Below, one piece after another: positions 4,160-10,313 of a DNA stretch of 10,313 nt (position 1 is its first letter; each line of letters starts with the position of its first letter). The stretch is from an uncultured archaeon (GTDB lineage Archaea; Thermoproteota; Nitrososphaeria; Nitrososphaerales; CALBXV01): the NCBI GenBank assembly GCA_937890045.1, contig CALBXV010000274.1:1-10313 (forward strand), given 5' to 3'. The position numbers and the translations under genes are program-made. The notes under the pieces were generated by a model. It saw only the letters and a list, made by a program, of their open reading frames with translations, ran no database searches and was not told where the DNA came from.

Positions 4160-4942
4160 ATGAGAGTATCAAATTTATCTCGAGAAGGAATCGAGAGATT
4201 AGATCGATATGTAAAACAAGTATCTAAGGGTAATAGTCATATCTCTGCAGAGTATGAAAAGAAACTTATACGTAAGTATAGAGCTTCAAGTGGAGTCACA
4301 AAGGAGCAGATACTTACGGAGTTAATTTCATATAATATTACTATTTTAGCAGAGATTGCTATCCAAGTGCTTAATTCTATGAAAGGCGGAGACAGAATTG
4401 ATCCGTTAGATCTTATGCAACTGGGTATTATTACTTTTATGAAAAAGCTGGGAACTTGGGATGAAACCAAGAAGGCAAAGATGATAACTTATTATTATCG
4501 GGATGTTAAAACACAAATGCAACGTTTTATTATGAACAATGCATTTCAGGTTAGACAAGGCTCAGTGTTTTTACAGCACCTAGCTTATTCAATATCTAAA
4601 GTAACTCAAAGATGGCTAGTCGATTATGAAAGAGAGCCTACTGTAACAGAACTCTCGGTGGAACTCGGAATCGCAGAATCTACTATTAAGTATTGTATGC
4701 AGATTACTTCGATTCAAACCTTAAAAATAGAGGATAACTGGGTGATGTATAAATCAACTTTGGATGATACTCATTACAGTTTACCCCCACTCTATACTAT
4801 AGCATCGTTGCTTATTAATAAGGTAATAGATGGAAAATCAGAGACGGTACTTTATGAATTAATGGACTTTCTTGAAAAAAAGCAGGCGTTATCTAGTAAT
4901 ACATTACAAGCGTTACGAGGTGCCTATATTGGCGAACAGTAG
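4160..4942 (+). CDS. Sigma-70-family-like RNA polymerase sigma factor, no recognisable region 4
   Basis: 260 residues. Residues ~82-128 match sigma region 2: DPLDLMQLGIITFMKKL resembles the core-binding helix DLIQEGxxGLxxA, followed by WDETKKAKMITYYYRDVKTQM, which resembles the segment that reads the -10 element. Residues ~146-182 match region 3, with EREPTVTELSVELGIAEST resembling the LGREPTxEELA..LG helix-turn-helix. The last ~75 residues show no clear region 4 helix-turn-helix, so binding to a -35 element would need another protein or be dispensed with. Phage sigma factors of this size (for example SPO1 gp28, about 220 residues) switch host RNA polymerase to middle or late phage promoters. 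The start at 4160 has GGAG at 4146-4149, ten bases upstream; an overlapping ATG at 4156 is in a frame that soon stops. A placement between polymerase and primase is unusual. Confidence 0.78.
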   Translation: MRVSNLSREGIERLDRYVKQVSKGNSHISAEYEKKLIRKYRASSGVTKEQILTELISYNITILAEIAIQVLNSMKGGDRIDPLDLMQLGIITFMKKLGTWDETKKAKMITYYYRDVKTQMQRFIMNNAFQVRQGSVFLQHLAYSISKVTQRWLVDYEREPTVTELSVELGIAESTIKYCMQITSIQTLKIEDNWVMYKSTLDDTHYSLPPLYTIASLLINKVIDGKSETVLYELMDFLEKKQALSSNTLQALRGAYIGEQ

Positions 4943-5012
4943 TTTAGGGACGAATGGTCCTGAATCAAAAATTATATTATAAAAATTTCAGTTATGGAGT
5001 AAGAAATATTAT

Positions 5013-6338
5013 ATGAATGAGCTATTAAACCCTTACTTAGAGAAGTTACCAGAATATTTGGGAAAGTATGGAATCAATTTAAAAATAAATACCTCCGGAA
5101 AATGTCCGATAAAGGAACATAAAAGTTATCAACCTTTTAGATTAGGAATAGGACGCGGTGGAGATCCTGTATGGCACTGCTTTGCTTGTGATATAGGTGG
5201 TAGTATTTTTGATCTAGCTGCTCAACTACATGGGTATCCAAGAGGAACTGAGCCTGGATTTTATGATGTAACAGTTAGACATTTATCAGATAGTCTAACA
5301 CTTCCTTTTCCAAATTTTAAGGTACAAAAAAGGACAGTTAAGGAACAGTATAAAATTGATTTATACAATGTTACTCGGGAAATATCAAACCATCTTTCAT
5401 ACTTACCTGTTAAGGAGTATGCTGAAAAGAGAGGATGGGATGCCAAAATATTAAAGGAATTTAATATTGGAGGAATTTCAGACTATAATAAGTTATTATC
5501 TTATTTAAGAACTAACTATTCTGATAAAGTTTTAACGGATGTTGGATTTCTTACTAAGAATCCAAACTTTAGATCTATATTCTTTGATGATAGAATCATA
5601 TTTACAATTCATGATCCTGTAGGAAGACCAGTTGGTTTTACCGCAAGAGCTATGGATTATGTGGGTGGAAATAATAGGAAGTATATTAATACTTCTAATT
5701 CTGTTATTTTTTCAAAACGAAATATATTATATAATATACATAGAGCTAGAGCAGCGTTAAATAAAGAAGATAGTAAGGTTCTATATATGGTAGAGGGTCA
5801 AGCAGATGTCATAACATTAGCTTCTAATGGAATTAGATCTGCTGTTGCTATATCTGGCACATCTTTTACTGATGAGCATGTAGCTCTAATAAAGGAGTTT
5901 AATCTTGTTGTAAGTTGTCTAGATGCTGACGACGGAGGCACAAAAGCTACTAGGAAACTATATAATAAGTATCATGCCTCTATTGGCAAAGATTTATATT
6001 TATTACAGTTGCCTTCTGGGAGTGATCCTGATGAATTTATTAAGAAAAATGGAATAGATGCCTTTCTTTCCCTGGATCCTATCCTTCCCATTGAGTGGGA
6101 AATATTAAATGAATATATGATTAGAGAAAAAATGTTAGCAAACTATTGGTTACCAAGATTAGCAGTAATGAATAGTTTTTATCATGAAAAAGTATTAAAA
6201 ACTATATCTGTTAAAACGGGTATGTGTATTAATAGTTTAAGAGACAGGTTAAATACACTAATCTTAGAAGAAACACAAAGATTAATTAGTACTGGTTTAT
6301 TAACCGGGTCTATTAATCTTTCAATTGAAAGGAGATAA
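5013..6338 (+). CDS. dnaG: DnaG-type DNA primase (CHC2 zinc finger and TOPRIM)
   Basis: 441 residues, shorter than bacterial DnaG (about 580-600). The zinc-binding domain has C31, H36, C56 and C59 (CPIKEH ... CFAC), so the first pair is C-x4-H rather than the common C-x2-H. The RNA polymerase domain includes DDRIIFTIHDPVGRPVGFTAR (~192-212), the usual R-x-x-F-P-I-x-D motif region. TOPRIM follows with E261 (VEGQADV), D304/D306 (LDADDGG) and a late acidic motif GSDPDEF (336-342). The final ~80 residues are helical and too short for a full DnaG helicase-binding domain, so helicase contact, if any, differs. It makes RNA primers for the phage polymerase encoded upstream. No DnaB-type helicase gene is in this window. 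The SD candidate GGAG (4996-4999) is 13 bases from the ATG, longer than ideal. The 3' end carries the SD of the exonuclease gene. Confidence 0.93.
   Translation: MNELLNPYLEKLPEYLGKYGINLKINTSGKCPIKEHKSYQPFRLGIGRGGDPVWHCFACDIGGSIFDLAAQLHGYPRGTEPGFYDVTVRHLSDSLTLPFPNFKVQKRTVKEQYKIDLYNVTREISNHLSYLPVKEYAEKRGWDAKILKEFNIGGISDYNKLLSYLRTNYSDKVLTDVGFLTKNPNFRSIFFDDRIIFTIHDPVGRPVGFTARAMDYVGGNNRKYINTSNSVIFSKRNILYNIHRARAALNKEDSKVLYMVEGQADVITLASNGIRSAVAISGTSFTDEHVALIKEFNLVVSCLDADDGGTKATRKLYNKYHASIGKDLYLLQLPSGSDPDEFIKKNGIDAFLSLDPILPIEWEILNEYMIREKMLANYWLPRLAVMNSFYHEKVLKTISVKTGMCINSLRDRLNTLILEETQRLISTGLLTGSINLSIERR
6331..6334 (+). promoter_or_regulatory. SD site fixing the exonuclease start at ATG 6340
   Basis: AAAGGAG ends five bases before ATG 6340. 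The reading frame is open to a TTG at 6325, but that TTG has no SD and lies inside the primase gene, so the ATG start is preferred and makes a 258-residue protein. Confidence 0.8.
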
Positions 6339-7118: not shown

Positions 7119-7637
7119 ATGAATTGGATTACTCCTTTTGCTGGAATGTTTATAGGGTGGATTACTAATGTAATAGCATTGGAGATGCTTTTTCTACCAA
7201 AAGATCCTATGTATTTATTAGGATTTAGATTACCATTTACTCCGGGACTGGTTCCACAGAATAAGACAAAGATAGTTAAGACTGCCTCAAAAAACATTTC
7301 TTCTATAGTTATAGATTCGTTGGCCAATGGCAGTAAGGAGAAGGCTTTTTCTTTATTTAATAAGATATTAGATAAGTATTGGGTAACTTCTATATTTGTT
7401 CCAGAGTTTAAAAGACAAGATATATATGATAAGATGGTTACTTCTGTTGCACAGGATAAAGATACACAAAAAGTTATACACTCTATTCTACAGGATCAAA
7501 TGGAAGAATATGATGCAAATCATTTTGAAGATACGGTAAGAAAATTAGCAAAGGAATCCCTAAGAGGGATTAAAGTATTAGGAGGAATAGTTGGGGGCCT
7601 TGTAGGTATACTAACTATGTATATAGGAGCGTTATAA
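7119..7637 (+). CDS. DUF445-family (YheB-like) membrane protein, short phage version
   Basis: 172 residues, far shorter than the roughly 370-420 of many bacterial DUF445 proteins. The N-terminal membrane segment and signature WITPFAGMFIGWITNVIALEM (3-23), then LFLPKDP and LPFTPGLVP (38-46), are the family hallmarks. The middle is a charged helical stretch, and the C-terminus ends in the family's closing element, KLAKESLRGIKVLGGIVGG (142-160), running into a second hydrophobic segment to residue 172. Both family ends are kept and the middle is reduced. Two membrane segments with a soluble part of about 130 residues between them are predicted. DUF445 proteins have no settled biochemical function. 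GGAG at 7110-7113, five bases before the ATG, supports the start. It is tightly coupled to exonuclease and reductase, which may hint at membrane anchoring of replication or an envelope function; this is inference. Confidence 0.82.
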   Translation: MNWITPFAGMFIGWITNVIALEMLFLPKDPMYLLGFRLPFTPGLVPQNKTKIVKTASKNISSIVIDSLANGSKEKAFSLFNKILDKYWVTSIFVPEFKRQDIYDKMVTSVAQDKDTQKVIHSILQDQMEEYDANHFEDTVRKLAKESLRGIKVLGGIVGGLVGILTMYIGAL

Positions 7638-7638
7638 A

Positions 7639-9645
7639 ATGGATTTTAAAATATCAGATAACTTTATAGATAAGTACAGACGTAAGAAGCCGCCATTTGG
7701 TTTCAATGGATTAGGAGAGCTAGTATATATGCGAACTTATTCTAGAATTAAAGAAAATGGTAAAAATGAACGATGGTGGGAAACAGTTCGCCGAGTTGTA
7801 GAAGGTACATACAGAATGCAGATGAATTGGATAAATCATCACCAGCTTGGATGGAATGCTTGGCAAGCCCAAAGGAGTGCACAAGAAATGTATGCCAGGA
7901 TTTGGGGAATGAAATTCTTACCACCTGGTAGAGGTTTATGGAGCATGGGAACTGATTTAACAGAAAAAAAGGAACTCTATGCTGCTTTAAATAATTGTGG
8001 GTTTGTAAGTACAGCAAACCTAAAGAATGATCTTAGTAAACCTTTTACTTTTCTTATGGATGCCTCAATGTTAGGCGTGGGAGTAGGCTTCGATACTAAA
8101 GGAGCTGAATCATTTGAGGTCAAAGGACAAAATAAAGATAAACAAACAGACTTTTATGAGATTCCAGATACTAGAGAAGGATGGATAGAAAGTGTTAAAC
8201 TCTTACTTGATTCATATTTTACTTATGGTGCTCCTATAAAATTCGACTATGGCTTGGTGAGACCTGCCGGGGAAGTTATTAAAGGTTTTGGGGGTGTTGC
8301 CTCAGGTCCTGACCCCTTACAAGAACTTCATGAACAGATTAGTTCTGTTTTAGAGAAAAATACAGGAAAACTTATAAGTGTAACTACTATTGTAGATATA
8401 CAGAATCTTATTGGTAAATGTGTGGTTGCAGGCAATGTTAGACGTACTGCAGAGATAGTATTTGGGGATCCATACTCGGATGAGTACTTAAATCTAAAGA
8501 ATTATAAATTAAACCCAGACAGAGAAATGTATGGCTGGACCTCAAATAATTCTGTATTTGCAGAGTTAGGTATGGATTATGGGCCTGCTTGTGAACGTAT
8601 CGTAGACAATGGAGAACCTGGATTTGCTTGGCTAGAAAATATGCAGGCTTATTCTAGAGTACGTAACGGAAAAGACTGGAAAGATCACCGCGTAAGCGGA
8701 GGAAATCCATGTCTTGAGCAGAGCTTGGAATCTTATGAATTGTGCTGCTTAGTAGAGACCTTTCCAAATAATCATGATGATCTAGAAGACTTTATAAAAA
8801 CTCTTAAGTATGCCTATTTATATGCTAAAACAGTTACATTAGGCAAGACTCAGTGGTCCGAAACTAATAGGGTTGCGTTAAGAAATCGTAGAATAGGAAC
8901 TTCTGTTTCTGGTGTTGCGCAGTTTATTACTAATAATGGATTGCATGAGTTTAAAAACTGGTTAGAGGAGGGCTATGTTGCTTTACAAGAATATGATAAT
9001 CAGTACTCAGATTGGTTAGCTGTACCTAGATCTATAAAAACTACATCAGTTAAACCCTCTGGTACAGTATCTCTGTTAGCAGGCGCTACTCCTGGAGTTC
9101 ACTTCCCAGAAAGTCGTTTTTATATTAGAAGGATGAGAATTTCAAAACATAGTGAGCTACTAGAGCCTTTACGAAAGGCAGGATATCATACTGAACCAGC
9201 TAAAGGTAGCGAAGATTCTACTATAGTTGTAGAGGTTCCTGTTGATATGGGAAAAGGAATTCGGACAGTTGGTGATGTTTCTATGTGGGAACAATTATCC
9301 ATAGCTGCTTTTATGCAGAAGTATTGGGCAGATAATCAAGTATCCTGTACTGTTACATTTGATCCTAAAACAGAGGGACCTCAATTAGAGTATGCATTAC
9401 AATATTTTCAGTATCAATTAAAAGGAATAAGTTTTCTTCCTCGAATGAAAGCTGGAGCTTATGCCCAAATGCCTTATGAGGAAATTAGTAAAAAGAAATA
9501 TAAACAATTAATTTCAAAACTAGGTAGATTAACATTCGGTACTATTTCCGGAGAGGAAGCAGAGGTAGATCGATTCTGTAATAACGATACATGTATGGAA
9601 GAAGAACAGACTTGGTCTGAAATTGAAGTCTGTGAACTCAATTAG
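7639..9645 (+). CDS. nrdJ: Adenosylcobalamin-dependent ribonucleoside-triphosphate reductase (class II, monomeric RTPR type)
   Basis: 668 residues, somewhat shorter than the Lactobacillus leichmannii enzyme (739). Conserved parts in order: KFLPPGRGLWSMG (92-104), NNCGFV with C120 (equivalent to C119), the active-site run NPCLEQSLESYELC with C358, E360 and C369 (equivalent to C408, E410 and C419, the same 11-residue spacing), VKPSGTVSLLAG (471-482) and a C-terminal redox pair C647-x4-C652, the same spacing as C731/C736. Unlike that enzyme, about 16 residues follow the pair. It reduces ribonucleoside triphosphates to dNTPs in the cytosol using adenosylcobalamin to make the thiyl radical, so it needs host B12 but works with or without oxygen. 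The ATG is one base after the DUF445 stop, with GGAG at 7626-7629 nine bases upstream. It supplies precursors for the polymerase in the same cluster. Confidence 0.96.
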   Translation: MDFKISDNFIDKYRRKKPPFGFNGLGELVYMRTYSRIKENGKNERWWETVRRVVEGTYRMQMNWINHHQLGWNAWQAQRSAQEMYARIWGMKFLPPGRGLWSMGTDLTEKKELYAALNNCGFVSTANLKNDLSKPFTFLMDASMLGVGVGFDTKGAESFEVKGQNKDKQTDFYEIPDTREGWIESVKLLLDSYFTYGAPIKFDYGLVRPAGEVIKGFGGVASGPDPLQELHEQISSVLEKNTGKLISVTTIVDIQNLIGKCVVAGNVRRTAEIVFGDPYSDEYLNLKNYKLNPDREMYGWTSNNSVFAELGMDYGPACERIVDNGEPGFAWLENMQAYSRVRNGKDWKDHRVSGGNPCLEQSLESYELCCLVETFPNNHDDLEDFIKTLKYAYLYAKTVTLGKTQWSETNRVALRNRRIGTSVSGVAQFITNNGLHEFKNWLEEGYVALQEYDNQYSDWLAVPRSIKTTSVKPSGTVSLLAGATPGVHFPESRFYIRRMRISKHSELLEPLRKAGYHTEPAKGSEDSTIVVEVPVDMGKGIRTVGDVSMWEQLSIAAFMQKYWADNQVSCTVTFDPKTEGPQLEYALQYFQYQLKGISFLPRMKAGAYAQMPYEEISKKKYKQLISKLGRLTFGTISGEEAEVDRFCNNDTCMEEEQTWSEIEVCELN

Positions 9646-9653
9646 GAGAGCTA

Positions 9654-9777
9654 GTAGAGCACTACGATGGCTGGTTGGGTCCTTTGCGGCCCTATATATT
9701 GGGAATGGACTAGGCTATCAGGTTGATCACCTAACGAAACATGGATATTAGTATAACAGTTACCCTGAACATTCCCA
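9654..9777 (+). other. Structured noncoding segment after nrdJ (5' half of the gap)
   Basis: The first half of the 278-base gap is GC-richer than the rest and folds on paper into nested, non-overlapping stems: 9654-9657 with 9662-9665 (4 bp, loop AGCA); 9677-9681 with 9688-9692 (GGGTC/GGCCC, one G-U pair); and 9700-9707 with 9770-9777 (TGGGAATG/CATTCCCA, 8 bp), which encloses a hairpin 9720-9723 with 9729-9732 (AGGT/ACCT). I see no known riboswitch core and no run of Ts making the GGGTC hairpin a clear terminator. It may be a 3' UTR of nrdJ, part of a longer RNA with the next element, or a leader of recD2. Confidence 0.35.
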
Positions 9778-9786
9778 TACTATTAA

Positions 9787-9900
9787 ATGCCAGAGATCTT
9801 TGTATATTACAAAATCCTCCAGTTTATTACAAAGATAGATTCAGGTTATCCTTTTTAGAATCTTATGATTATTAATTATAATTATATCATTCTCTGGCAT
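9787..9900 (+). ncRNA. Candidate structured RNA or inverted-repeat element with four-way-junction fold
   Basis: A perfect 10-bp stem, ATGCCAGAGA (9787-9796) with TCTCTGGCAT (9891-9900), encloses three hairpins that pack almost without gaps: 9797-9804 with 9828-9835 (8 bp), 9837-9842 with 9858-9863 (AGATTC/GAATCT, 6 bp, with an inner AGG/CCT), and 9865-9869 with 9886-9890 (ATGAT/ATCAT, 5 bp). Only 9836 and 9864 are unpaired at the junction. The 23-base loop of the first hairpin contains CCTCC (9816-9820), the complement of an SD core. There is no open reading frame of note. It may be a phage small RNA, a recD2 leader, or a small inverted-repeat (MITE-like) DNA element. Strand is assigned by context only. 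Confidence 0.42.
9854..9882 (+). promoter_or_regulatory. Possible sigma-70-type promoter for recD2
   Basis: A perfect TATAAT (9877-9882) has TTTAGA (9854-9859, four of six matches to TTGACA) 17 bases upstream, giving a start near 9889 and a short leader to the recD2 ATG at 9924. It overlaps the 3' half of the four-way-junction element, so the structure and promoter may be alternative readings of the same bases. AT-rich sequence makes chance matches common. Confidence 0.3.
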
Positions 9901-9923
9901 AAATTTAAATTAGAGAGAACATT

Positions 9924-10313
9924 ATGCAACTAGCAGGTATTATAGAAAATATTATATATTCAAAGGAAGGCTTTAGTATAGCCAACTTGTCAGAAGATGA
10001 TAGCAATAAGCATCATACTATTCTTGGAAATATGAATGTTGTTATAGGTGAACATTTAAAATTAAATGGACATTTTGAAAAATCTGATTACGGTATAAGA
10101 TTTAAAGTTAAAGAGTATAAACGGAATGTACCCAACACTAGAGAGGGAGTAGCTGCCCTTCTTGGATCTGGTCTTCTAAAAGGAATTGGTCCTTCTAGAG
10201 CTGATTGGATGGTAAATCATTTCGGAACAGAGGTAGTTGATATAATTAAGAATCAAGATTCAAAGATTCTTGAGGTGCCTGGAATTGGAAAGAAGCTAGC
10301 CGATACAATATAT
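9924..10313 (+). CDS. recD2: RecD2-type (YrrC-like) 5'-3' DNA helicase, N-terminal part, runs off the window
   Basis: The first 130 codons are open to the window end. The protein begins MQLAGIIENIIYSKEGFSIA and has an OB-fold-like strand series including GEHLKLNGHFEKSDYGIRFKV, the N-terminal domain of RecD2. Tandem helix-hairpin-helix motifs follow: LLKGIGPSRADWMVNHFG (residues ~84-101) and LEVPGIGKKLADTI (~116-129). The helicase motor (Walker A and beyond) would lie outside the window. RecD2 is a 5'-3' helicase that works without RecBC in many Firmicutes, in repair and fork maintenance; phages carry versions as replication helicases. Only a weak AGAGAG sequence (9912-9917) precedes the ATG. 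It follows the structured gap rather than being coupled to nrdJ, so it may be separately expressed. Confidence 0.9.
   Translation, partial: MQLAGIIENIIYSKEGFSIANLSEDDSNKHHTILGNMNVVIGEHLKLNGHFEKSDYGIRFKVKEYKRNVPNTREGVAALLGSGLLKGIGPSRADWMVNHFGTEVVDIIKNQDSKILEVPGIGKKLADTIY

Follow-up and report, generated by a model that had tools for sequence, protein, structure and literature searches.

Gene setting and fold of the element

The window (the whole stretch of DNA that was analysed, 10,313 nt) has the look of a phage replication module, with resolvase-like, DNA polymerase, sigma factor, primase, exonuclease, DUF445, nrdJ and recD2-like genes. The last two enclose the region described here. The upstream gene, an nrdJ-type ribonucleotide reductase, is an open reading frame (ORF) at positions 7639–9645 of the plus strand (PHROG 367, E 1.4e-132), while the downstream gene, a recD2-like helicase on the same strand, occupies 9924–10313 and runs off the window (PHROG 4412 exonuclease V, E 1.4e-9; Pfam OB_YrrC, E 5.1e-10). 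The gap between them is the largest in the window, with 278 nt vs. −26 to 70 nt between the other ORFs taken as genes. No tRNA or tmRNA genes were found in the window with ARAGORN. Among the neighboring genes, the one separating the exonuclease gene from nrdJ (7119–7637) encodes a DUF445-family protein with 78% identity to its counterpart in the sister phage described below, and a sigma-factor-like protein is encoded at 4160–4942 (PHROG 351). The latter, a phage-encoded protein, suggests that the host is bacterial and that some promoters are under phage control, which a scan for sigma-70 sites would overlook.

Inside the gap, positions 9787–9900 hold the compact element that a previous sequence-only reading of this DNA had singled out, and a direct reading recovered it as described: four perfect stems of 10, 8, 6, and 5 bp, arranged as a four-way junction with two unpaired bases (9836 and 9864). 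The closing stem P1 (10 bp, 5′ arm 9787–9796, 3′ arm 9891–9900) surrounds P2 (8 bp, arms 9797–9804 and 9828–9835), P3 (6 bp, arms 9837–9842 and 9858–9863), and the P4 hairpin (9865–9890, 5 bp between the arms 9865–9869 and 9886–9890), all given for the plus strand, with the 3′ arms of P2 and P3 taken from the sequence and from RNAfold. The P2 loop carries AAAANCCTCCA at 9811–9821 and the P3 loop TTATCCTTTTT at 9846–9856. RNAfold predicted the four-way junction for the plus strand at −32.5 kcal/mol (z −6.94), with P4 drawn in another register of 9 bp and the junction otherwise as read directly. None of 200 dinucleotide shuffles folded as well, so the expectation that the fold exceeds what random sequence would give withstood the shuffled-sequence control. 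The minus strand folds too (z −4.76, 0/200 shuffles as good). The full gap (9640–9925) gave an ordinary fold (z −1.48, 15/200 shuffles as good), which places the fold signal in the element only. Energies of −32.5 kcal/mol or lower were reached by 12 of the 1134 sliding 114-mers of the window, the element not being the lowest, and the case therefore rests on the shuffles and on the sister phage, not on raw energy.

Conservation in a sister phage

The same junction was found in the 24.7-kb contig IMGVR_UViG_3300009332_000436 (L001), at 5110–5214. The order of the compared genes is common to L001 and the window, nrdJ is 84% identical, and the element occupies the same site in both phages, downstream of nrdJ and on its strand. 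The L001 copy folds into the four-way junction at −38.3 kcal/mol (z −5.90, 0/200 shuffles as good), and its minus strand folds as well. The similarity is confined to the fold: the alignment z, 11.9 across the element, drops to 0.2 in the stretch that separates it from the nrdJ stop and to 2.3 over the last 23 bases ahead of recD2, and beyond the 3′ arm of P1 the two sequences are no longer clearly alike. Aligning the two copies takes three gaps, of which two fall in loops and the third at the base of P4. Both phages have the same P3 loop, their P2 loops differ by one base, and the P4 loop is variable (16 nt in the window vs. 6 nt in L001).

Standard base pairs are formed in both phages at 27 of the 29 pairs. 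Double (compensatory) changes amount to four on a hand-adjusted alignment and to three on the MAFFT alignment A4, the adjustment consisting of one gap moved in P4, which is the source of the fourth change. They include an A-U to G-C replacement in P1, one double change in P2, and one in P3, where L001 additionally has U-G in place of two U-A pairs. On the complementary strand these two U-G pairs would turn into A-C mismatches, which favors a plus-strand RNA. When the 27 substitutions were permuted among same-base sites, the 27 pairs were kept in 0 of 200,000 permutations, and in 43 of 200,000 when the 13 stem substitutions were confined to stems. The count of four double changes was reached in 19,971 of the 200,000 free permutations and in 3,925 of the 200,000 restricted to stems.

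As a control with real sequences, 1786 folds were obtained from overlapping 105-nt codon-aligned segments of nine flanking gene pairs (mean identity 0.745), each segment being folded from either phage. The pair retention of the element was reached by four of these folds, and none combined at least four double changes with a retention of at least 0.85; at least four double changes alone were present in 40 of the 1786. The strength of the evidence lies in the pairs kept; a count of double changes would not by itself decide the matter. Simple pair counting, weak as it used two rows only, gave 27/500 shuffles that reached the percentage paired and 62/500 that reached the double changes. Taken together, the stems are kept through compensatory changes between homologues (n = 2 sequences), the pattern of a conserved structured RNA. 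The sequence-only reading had argued for a structured RNA over a chance fold, a view supported by the sister phage, which shares the junction, shows compensatory changes, and is conserved no further than the fold. The comparison of homologous gaps that it had proposed gave 27/29 pairs and three to four double changes with one relative, and found no third sequence. The conservation of the element thus rests on two sequences, the window and L001, which is its main weakness. We consider it likely that an RNA structure is under selection in this lineage.

Further relatives were sought among 47 nrdJ loci from IMG/VR, all of which were searched with a covariance model, and the downstream sequence was read in 43 of them; in the other four the match stops short of the 3′ end of nrdJ, and in L018 the sequence runs on for 9 bases past the stop. 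One of the 47 loci (L001) bears the element. No third relative was recovered from the IMG/VR viral contigs using nrdJ, recD2-fragment, polymerase, arginase-family, and DNA-pattern queries (for one loose DNA-pattern query, this result covers the 120 stretches listed), and the polymerase alignment A3 as well as the arginase-family queries led to the L001 contig only. Screening of 50,697 phage records with blastn returned no relative for window positions 7639–10313 or for the L001 element, and the two short matches of the window element were taken as chance given their best E of 3e-3 over 31% of the query. The covariance model R1 was run over 54 + 79 + 40 + 80 + 3 sources and gave credible matches in the window and L001 only, the next best being L054 (20.2 bits, E 0.17). 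Neither the window nor the L001 contig contained a credible second copy, the next best match in the latter having 14.7 bits (E 0.26). The element had been said to resemble no recognised RNA family, and Rfam 15 likewise gave no matches at the gathering score in either the window or the L001 contig. No description of the element was found in the literature searched (titles and the starts of abstracts), which is no proof of its absence in print.

The arginase-family gene and its remnant

In L001, the element lies within an intact ORF of 275 codons (4985–5812), which runs through it and matches the Pfam family Arginase (PF00491) with 26 bits (cut-off 22). The ORF has a TTG start that overlaps the nrdJ stop. 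The L001 fold overlaps the codons of the motif LGSGDFHHLSG. The encoded protein has 192 database relatives at E 0.001, and sets of homologues were hand-picked among the best 120 of these 192 (A1, 12 besides L001 and P0001; A5, 12). All 12 homologues in A1 are colinear across the element, without insertion, and the motif LGSGD(F/Y)H is found in six of them, a variant of it in five, and none in P0013. Residues G67, S68, G69, D70, and H72 are invariant in the 12 homologues of A5. A profile built from 80 homologues, selected among the best 120 of the 192 by the motif and its position, scored 147.6 bits for the whole L001 protein vs. 139.0 bits without the first 62 residues. The extreme N-terminal part is hence weakly supported as coding, and the motif is not in doubt. 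Pattern-based scans of IMG/VR gave no second phage ORF of the arginase family.

The window holds what is left of this gene. Local protein alignments with the L001 ORF matched two successive plus-strand frames, frame +1 at 9698–9835 and frame +2 at 9831–9872, with scores of 49 (0/200 shuffles as good) and 39 (1/200). The C-terminal part is missing, and ahead of recD2 the window has no ORF that could supply the remainder of the gene. With two successive matching frames, stops, a change of frame, and a lost C-terminus, the stretch 9698–9872 is a broken 5′ remnant of an arginase-family gene, and the combination of homology, a broken frame, and loss of the catalytic part makes the window copy a pseudogene. 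The stretch 9646–9750, between nrdJ and the element, has a GC content of 0.47 vs. 0.34 for the window. In addition, a GTG that overlaps the end of nrdJ opens a possible frame at 9632–9751 for a peptide of 39 residues, hydrophobic in its middle; this may be where the broken gene began, or else a newly arisen small ORF.

Bacterial PF00491 genes belong to the same family as the L001 ORF, whereas no fold of this kind was seen outside this phage lineage. Of 485 bacterial arginase-family loci, 80 were kept, among which 64 were foldable and 16 had no usable stretch by motif search. The fold was not seen among the 80 loci, where the best covariance-model match reached 13 bits (E 4.9), and the homologous place in the 64 foldable ones had a mean fold z of −0.39, with one locus below −3. 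Shuffling the L001 ORF among synonymous codons produced an equally good fold of the stretch in 1 of 2000 cases. By L001 codon position, identity between the two copies of the element is flat (25/33, 26/35, and 24/34), compared with 0.81/0.90/0.53 in five gene pairs, in which 41% of the four-fold synonymous sites are identical (192/466). Constraint on the protein alone is therefore insufficient to explain the element, with third-position conservation that is itself modest, being equaled by 4.2% of gene windows.

Candidate roles of the element

We give about even credence to a selected plus-strand structured RNA that is dual-coding in the sister phage and was kept in the window after the arginase-family gene died. 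According to this proposal, the RNA is a plus-strand domain of approximately 105–114 nt, with a perfect four-way junction and two conserved C/U-rich loops, between nrdJ and recD2 and on their strand. In the sister phage it is embedded in, and overlaps, the arginase-family coding sequence; in the window phage the gene has decayed by frameshift, stops, and 3′ loss, with the RNA domain retained. The fold, its conservation with compensatory changes, the lack of such conservation around it, and the gene remnant are all shown by the sequences. That the domain acts as an RNA, and that it is transcribed together with nrdJ or from a separate, unseen promoter, we infer. Its exposed CCUCC and UUAUCCUUUUU loops may then bind Shine-Dalgarno sites of other messages, in the manner of a loop-based regulatory sRNA.

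These loop sequences look anti-Shine-Dalgarno, and GGAG-type Shine-Dalgarno sequences are found at many of the listed start sites, so that the loops could pair with them. Pairing was scored with RNAduplex against shuffled loops. Over 20 phage start sites, the P2 loop of L001 was matched by 0 of 100 shuffles, while neither its P3 loop (60/100 as good) nor its P4 loop (13/100) stood out. Over 10 start sites in the window, 25/100 shuffles were as good as the P2 loop and 35/100 as good as the P3 loop, leaving targets unsupported there. The exo start site was the top partner of the P3 loop in both phages, as the best picked from 10 or 20 sites and uncorrected for that choice.

LhrC, RsaE/RoxS, and FsrA are sRNAs whose C/U-rich loops pair with Shine-Dalgarno sites. 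The element likewise exposes CCUCC and UAUCCU loops as candidates for such pairing, but no promoter or terminator of its own was seen. Among the Rfam models, sRNA154 (RF02906) matched the L001 element end to end with 29.3 bits (E 1.5e-4) vs. a gathering score of 88, and the window element gave no match to it at E 10, hence we treat it as a resemblance and not as membership of the family. Both have a long closing stem with internal hairpins, but the first internal hairpin of the model is mostly deleted in the L001 match. Moreover, sRNA154 is a nitrogen-regulated RNA of Methanosarcina, an archaeal host, whereas the phage studied here encodes a sigma-factor-like protein. In PMC5867862, loop 2 of sRNA154 is described as holding an anti-ribosome-binding-site sequence that masks a ribosome binding site; PMC12619734 cites sRNA154 in its reference list. 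The anti-ribosome-binding-site loop resembles the idea advanced for the candidate loops here, and by analogy the element may work like sRNA154. A second model, sRNA-Xcc1 (RF02221), is alike over the closing stem (L001, 23.5 bits, E 0.035), but its gathering score of 53 lies above the L001 match, and it has no match in the window.

As for mechanism, pairing of the exposed loops with Shine-Dalgarno sites of other messages is the single likeliest one, with a role in cis nearly as likely, and we propose it tentatively. The complete reading, in which a phage regulatory RNA would have outlasted the enzyme gene it shared bases with and its anti-Shine-Dalgarno loops would act on phage or host translation, is put forward with considerable doubt. 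If it is true, the two phages offer a natural separation of overlapping protein and RNA functions, in which the constraint on the RNA is directly readable because one lineage has lost the protein frame and the other has not. They would also show a structured regulatory RNA arising within a phage metabolic gene, and imply that phage "pseudogene" gaps can contain functional RNA missed by annotation.

The fold could instead act only in cis, protecting or processing the nrdJ-recD2 message as a stabilizer of the nrdJ 3′ end, an RNase III-type cleavage site, or a spacer before recD2, with loop sequences that have no action on other messages. This we regard as rather unlikely. Both phages have the fold in the same place, after nrdJ and on the nrdJ strand, which would fit such a role, and so would the mixed outcome of the loop-target tests and the promoter-like sites, which did not exceed shuffles in either phage (4 vs. 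4.2 in the window and 1 vs. 5.0 in L001). By itself, however, a cis role does not account for loops that are unchanged in P3 and almost unchanged in P2 but variable in P4. A terminator-like hairpin at 9677–9692, between nrdJ and the fold, also argues against it (two such hairpins were found over both strands, with 0.4 expected); if working, it would separate the fold from the nrdJ message. The scan showed no such hairpin in L001. The sequence-only reading had listed a cis-regulatory leader of recD2 among its alternatives, a role that can be set aside as common to both phages, since 579 nt, mostly the arginase-family ORF, intervene between fold and recD2 in L001. A promoter-like site (10/12) is present at 9854–9882, running through P3 and P4 towards recD2. 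It may mark a start of transcription for recD2 alone that the window phage has acquired, such sites being no more frequent than in shuffles.

It is less probable that the window copy is a relic, fairly recent and passively decaying, of a fold that mattered only in the arginase-family message or never. The remnant is indeed a broken gene, two sequences are compared, and the three alignment gaps in the element are too few to show constraint after the death of the gene. However, the upstream part of the same remnant lost its nucleotide similarity (z 0.2) and the fold did not (z 11.9), and neither the retention of pairs nor third codon positions that are not clearly the least conserved would be expected of a relic.

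A function of the DNA itself, as a cruciform or single-strand hairpin (e.g., a replication or recombination site) with arms kept matched by template switching, seems improbable. Folding on both strands and the Holliday-junction resolvase-like gene at 71–553 speak for it, but template correction would be expected to even out the U-G pairs in P3 of L001, and the loops are conserved as well. Finally, a mobile palindromic element inserted in the phage, an option raised earlier and suggested by the inverted arms and compact size, is very improbable, as neither several copies nor an insertion was found: the window and the L001 contig have one credible copy each, and arginase-family homologues are colinear through the L001 fold.

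A further hairpin in the window is the GC-rich GGTGTGGGGCAACGCCCCACACC at 912–934, in the gap of 58 nt that separates the ORF at 564 from the one at 952. The terminator scan of the window recorded no site in this gap. The same gap in the sister phage (L048, 11287–11340, minus strand) holds a hairpin of another sequence and of similar energy (approximately −21 kcal/mol).
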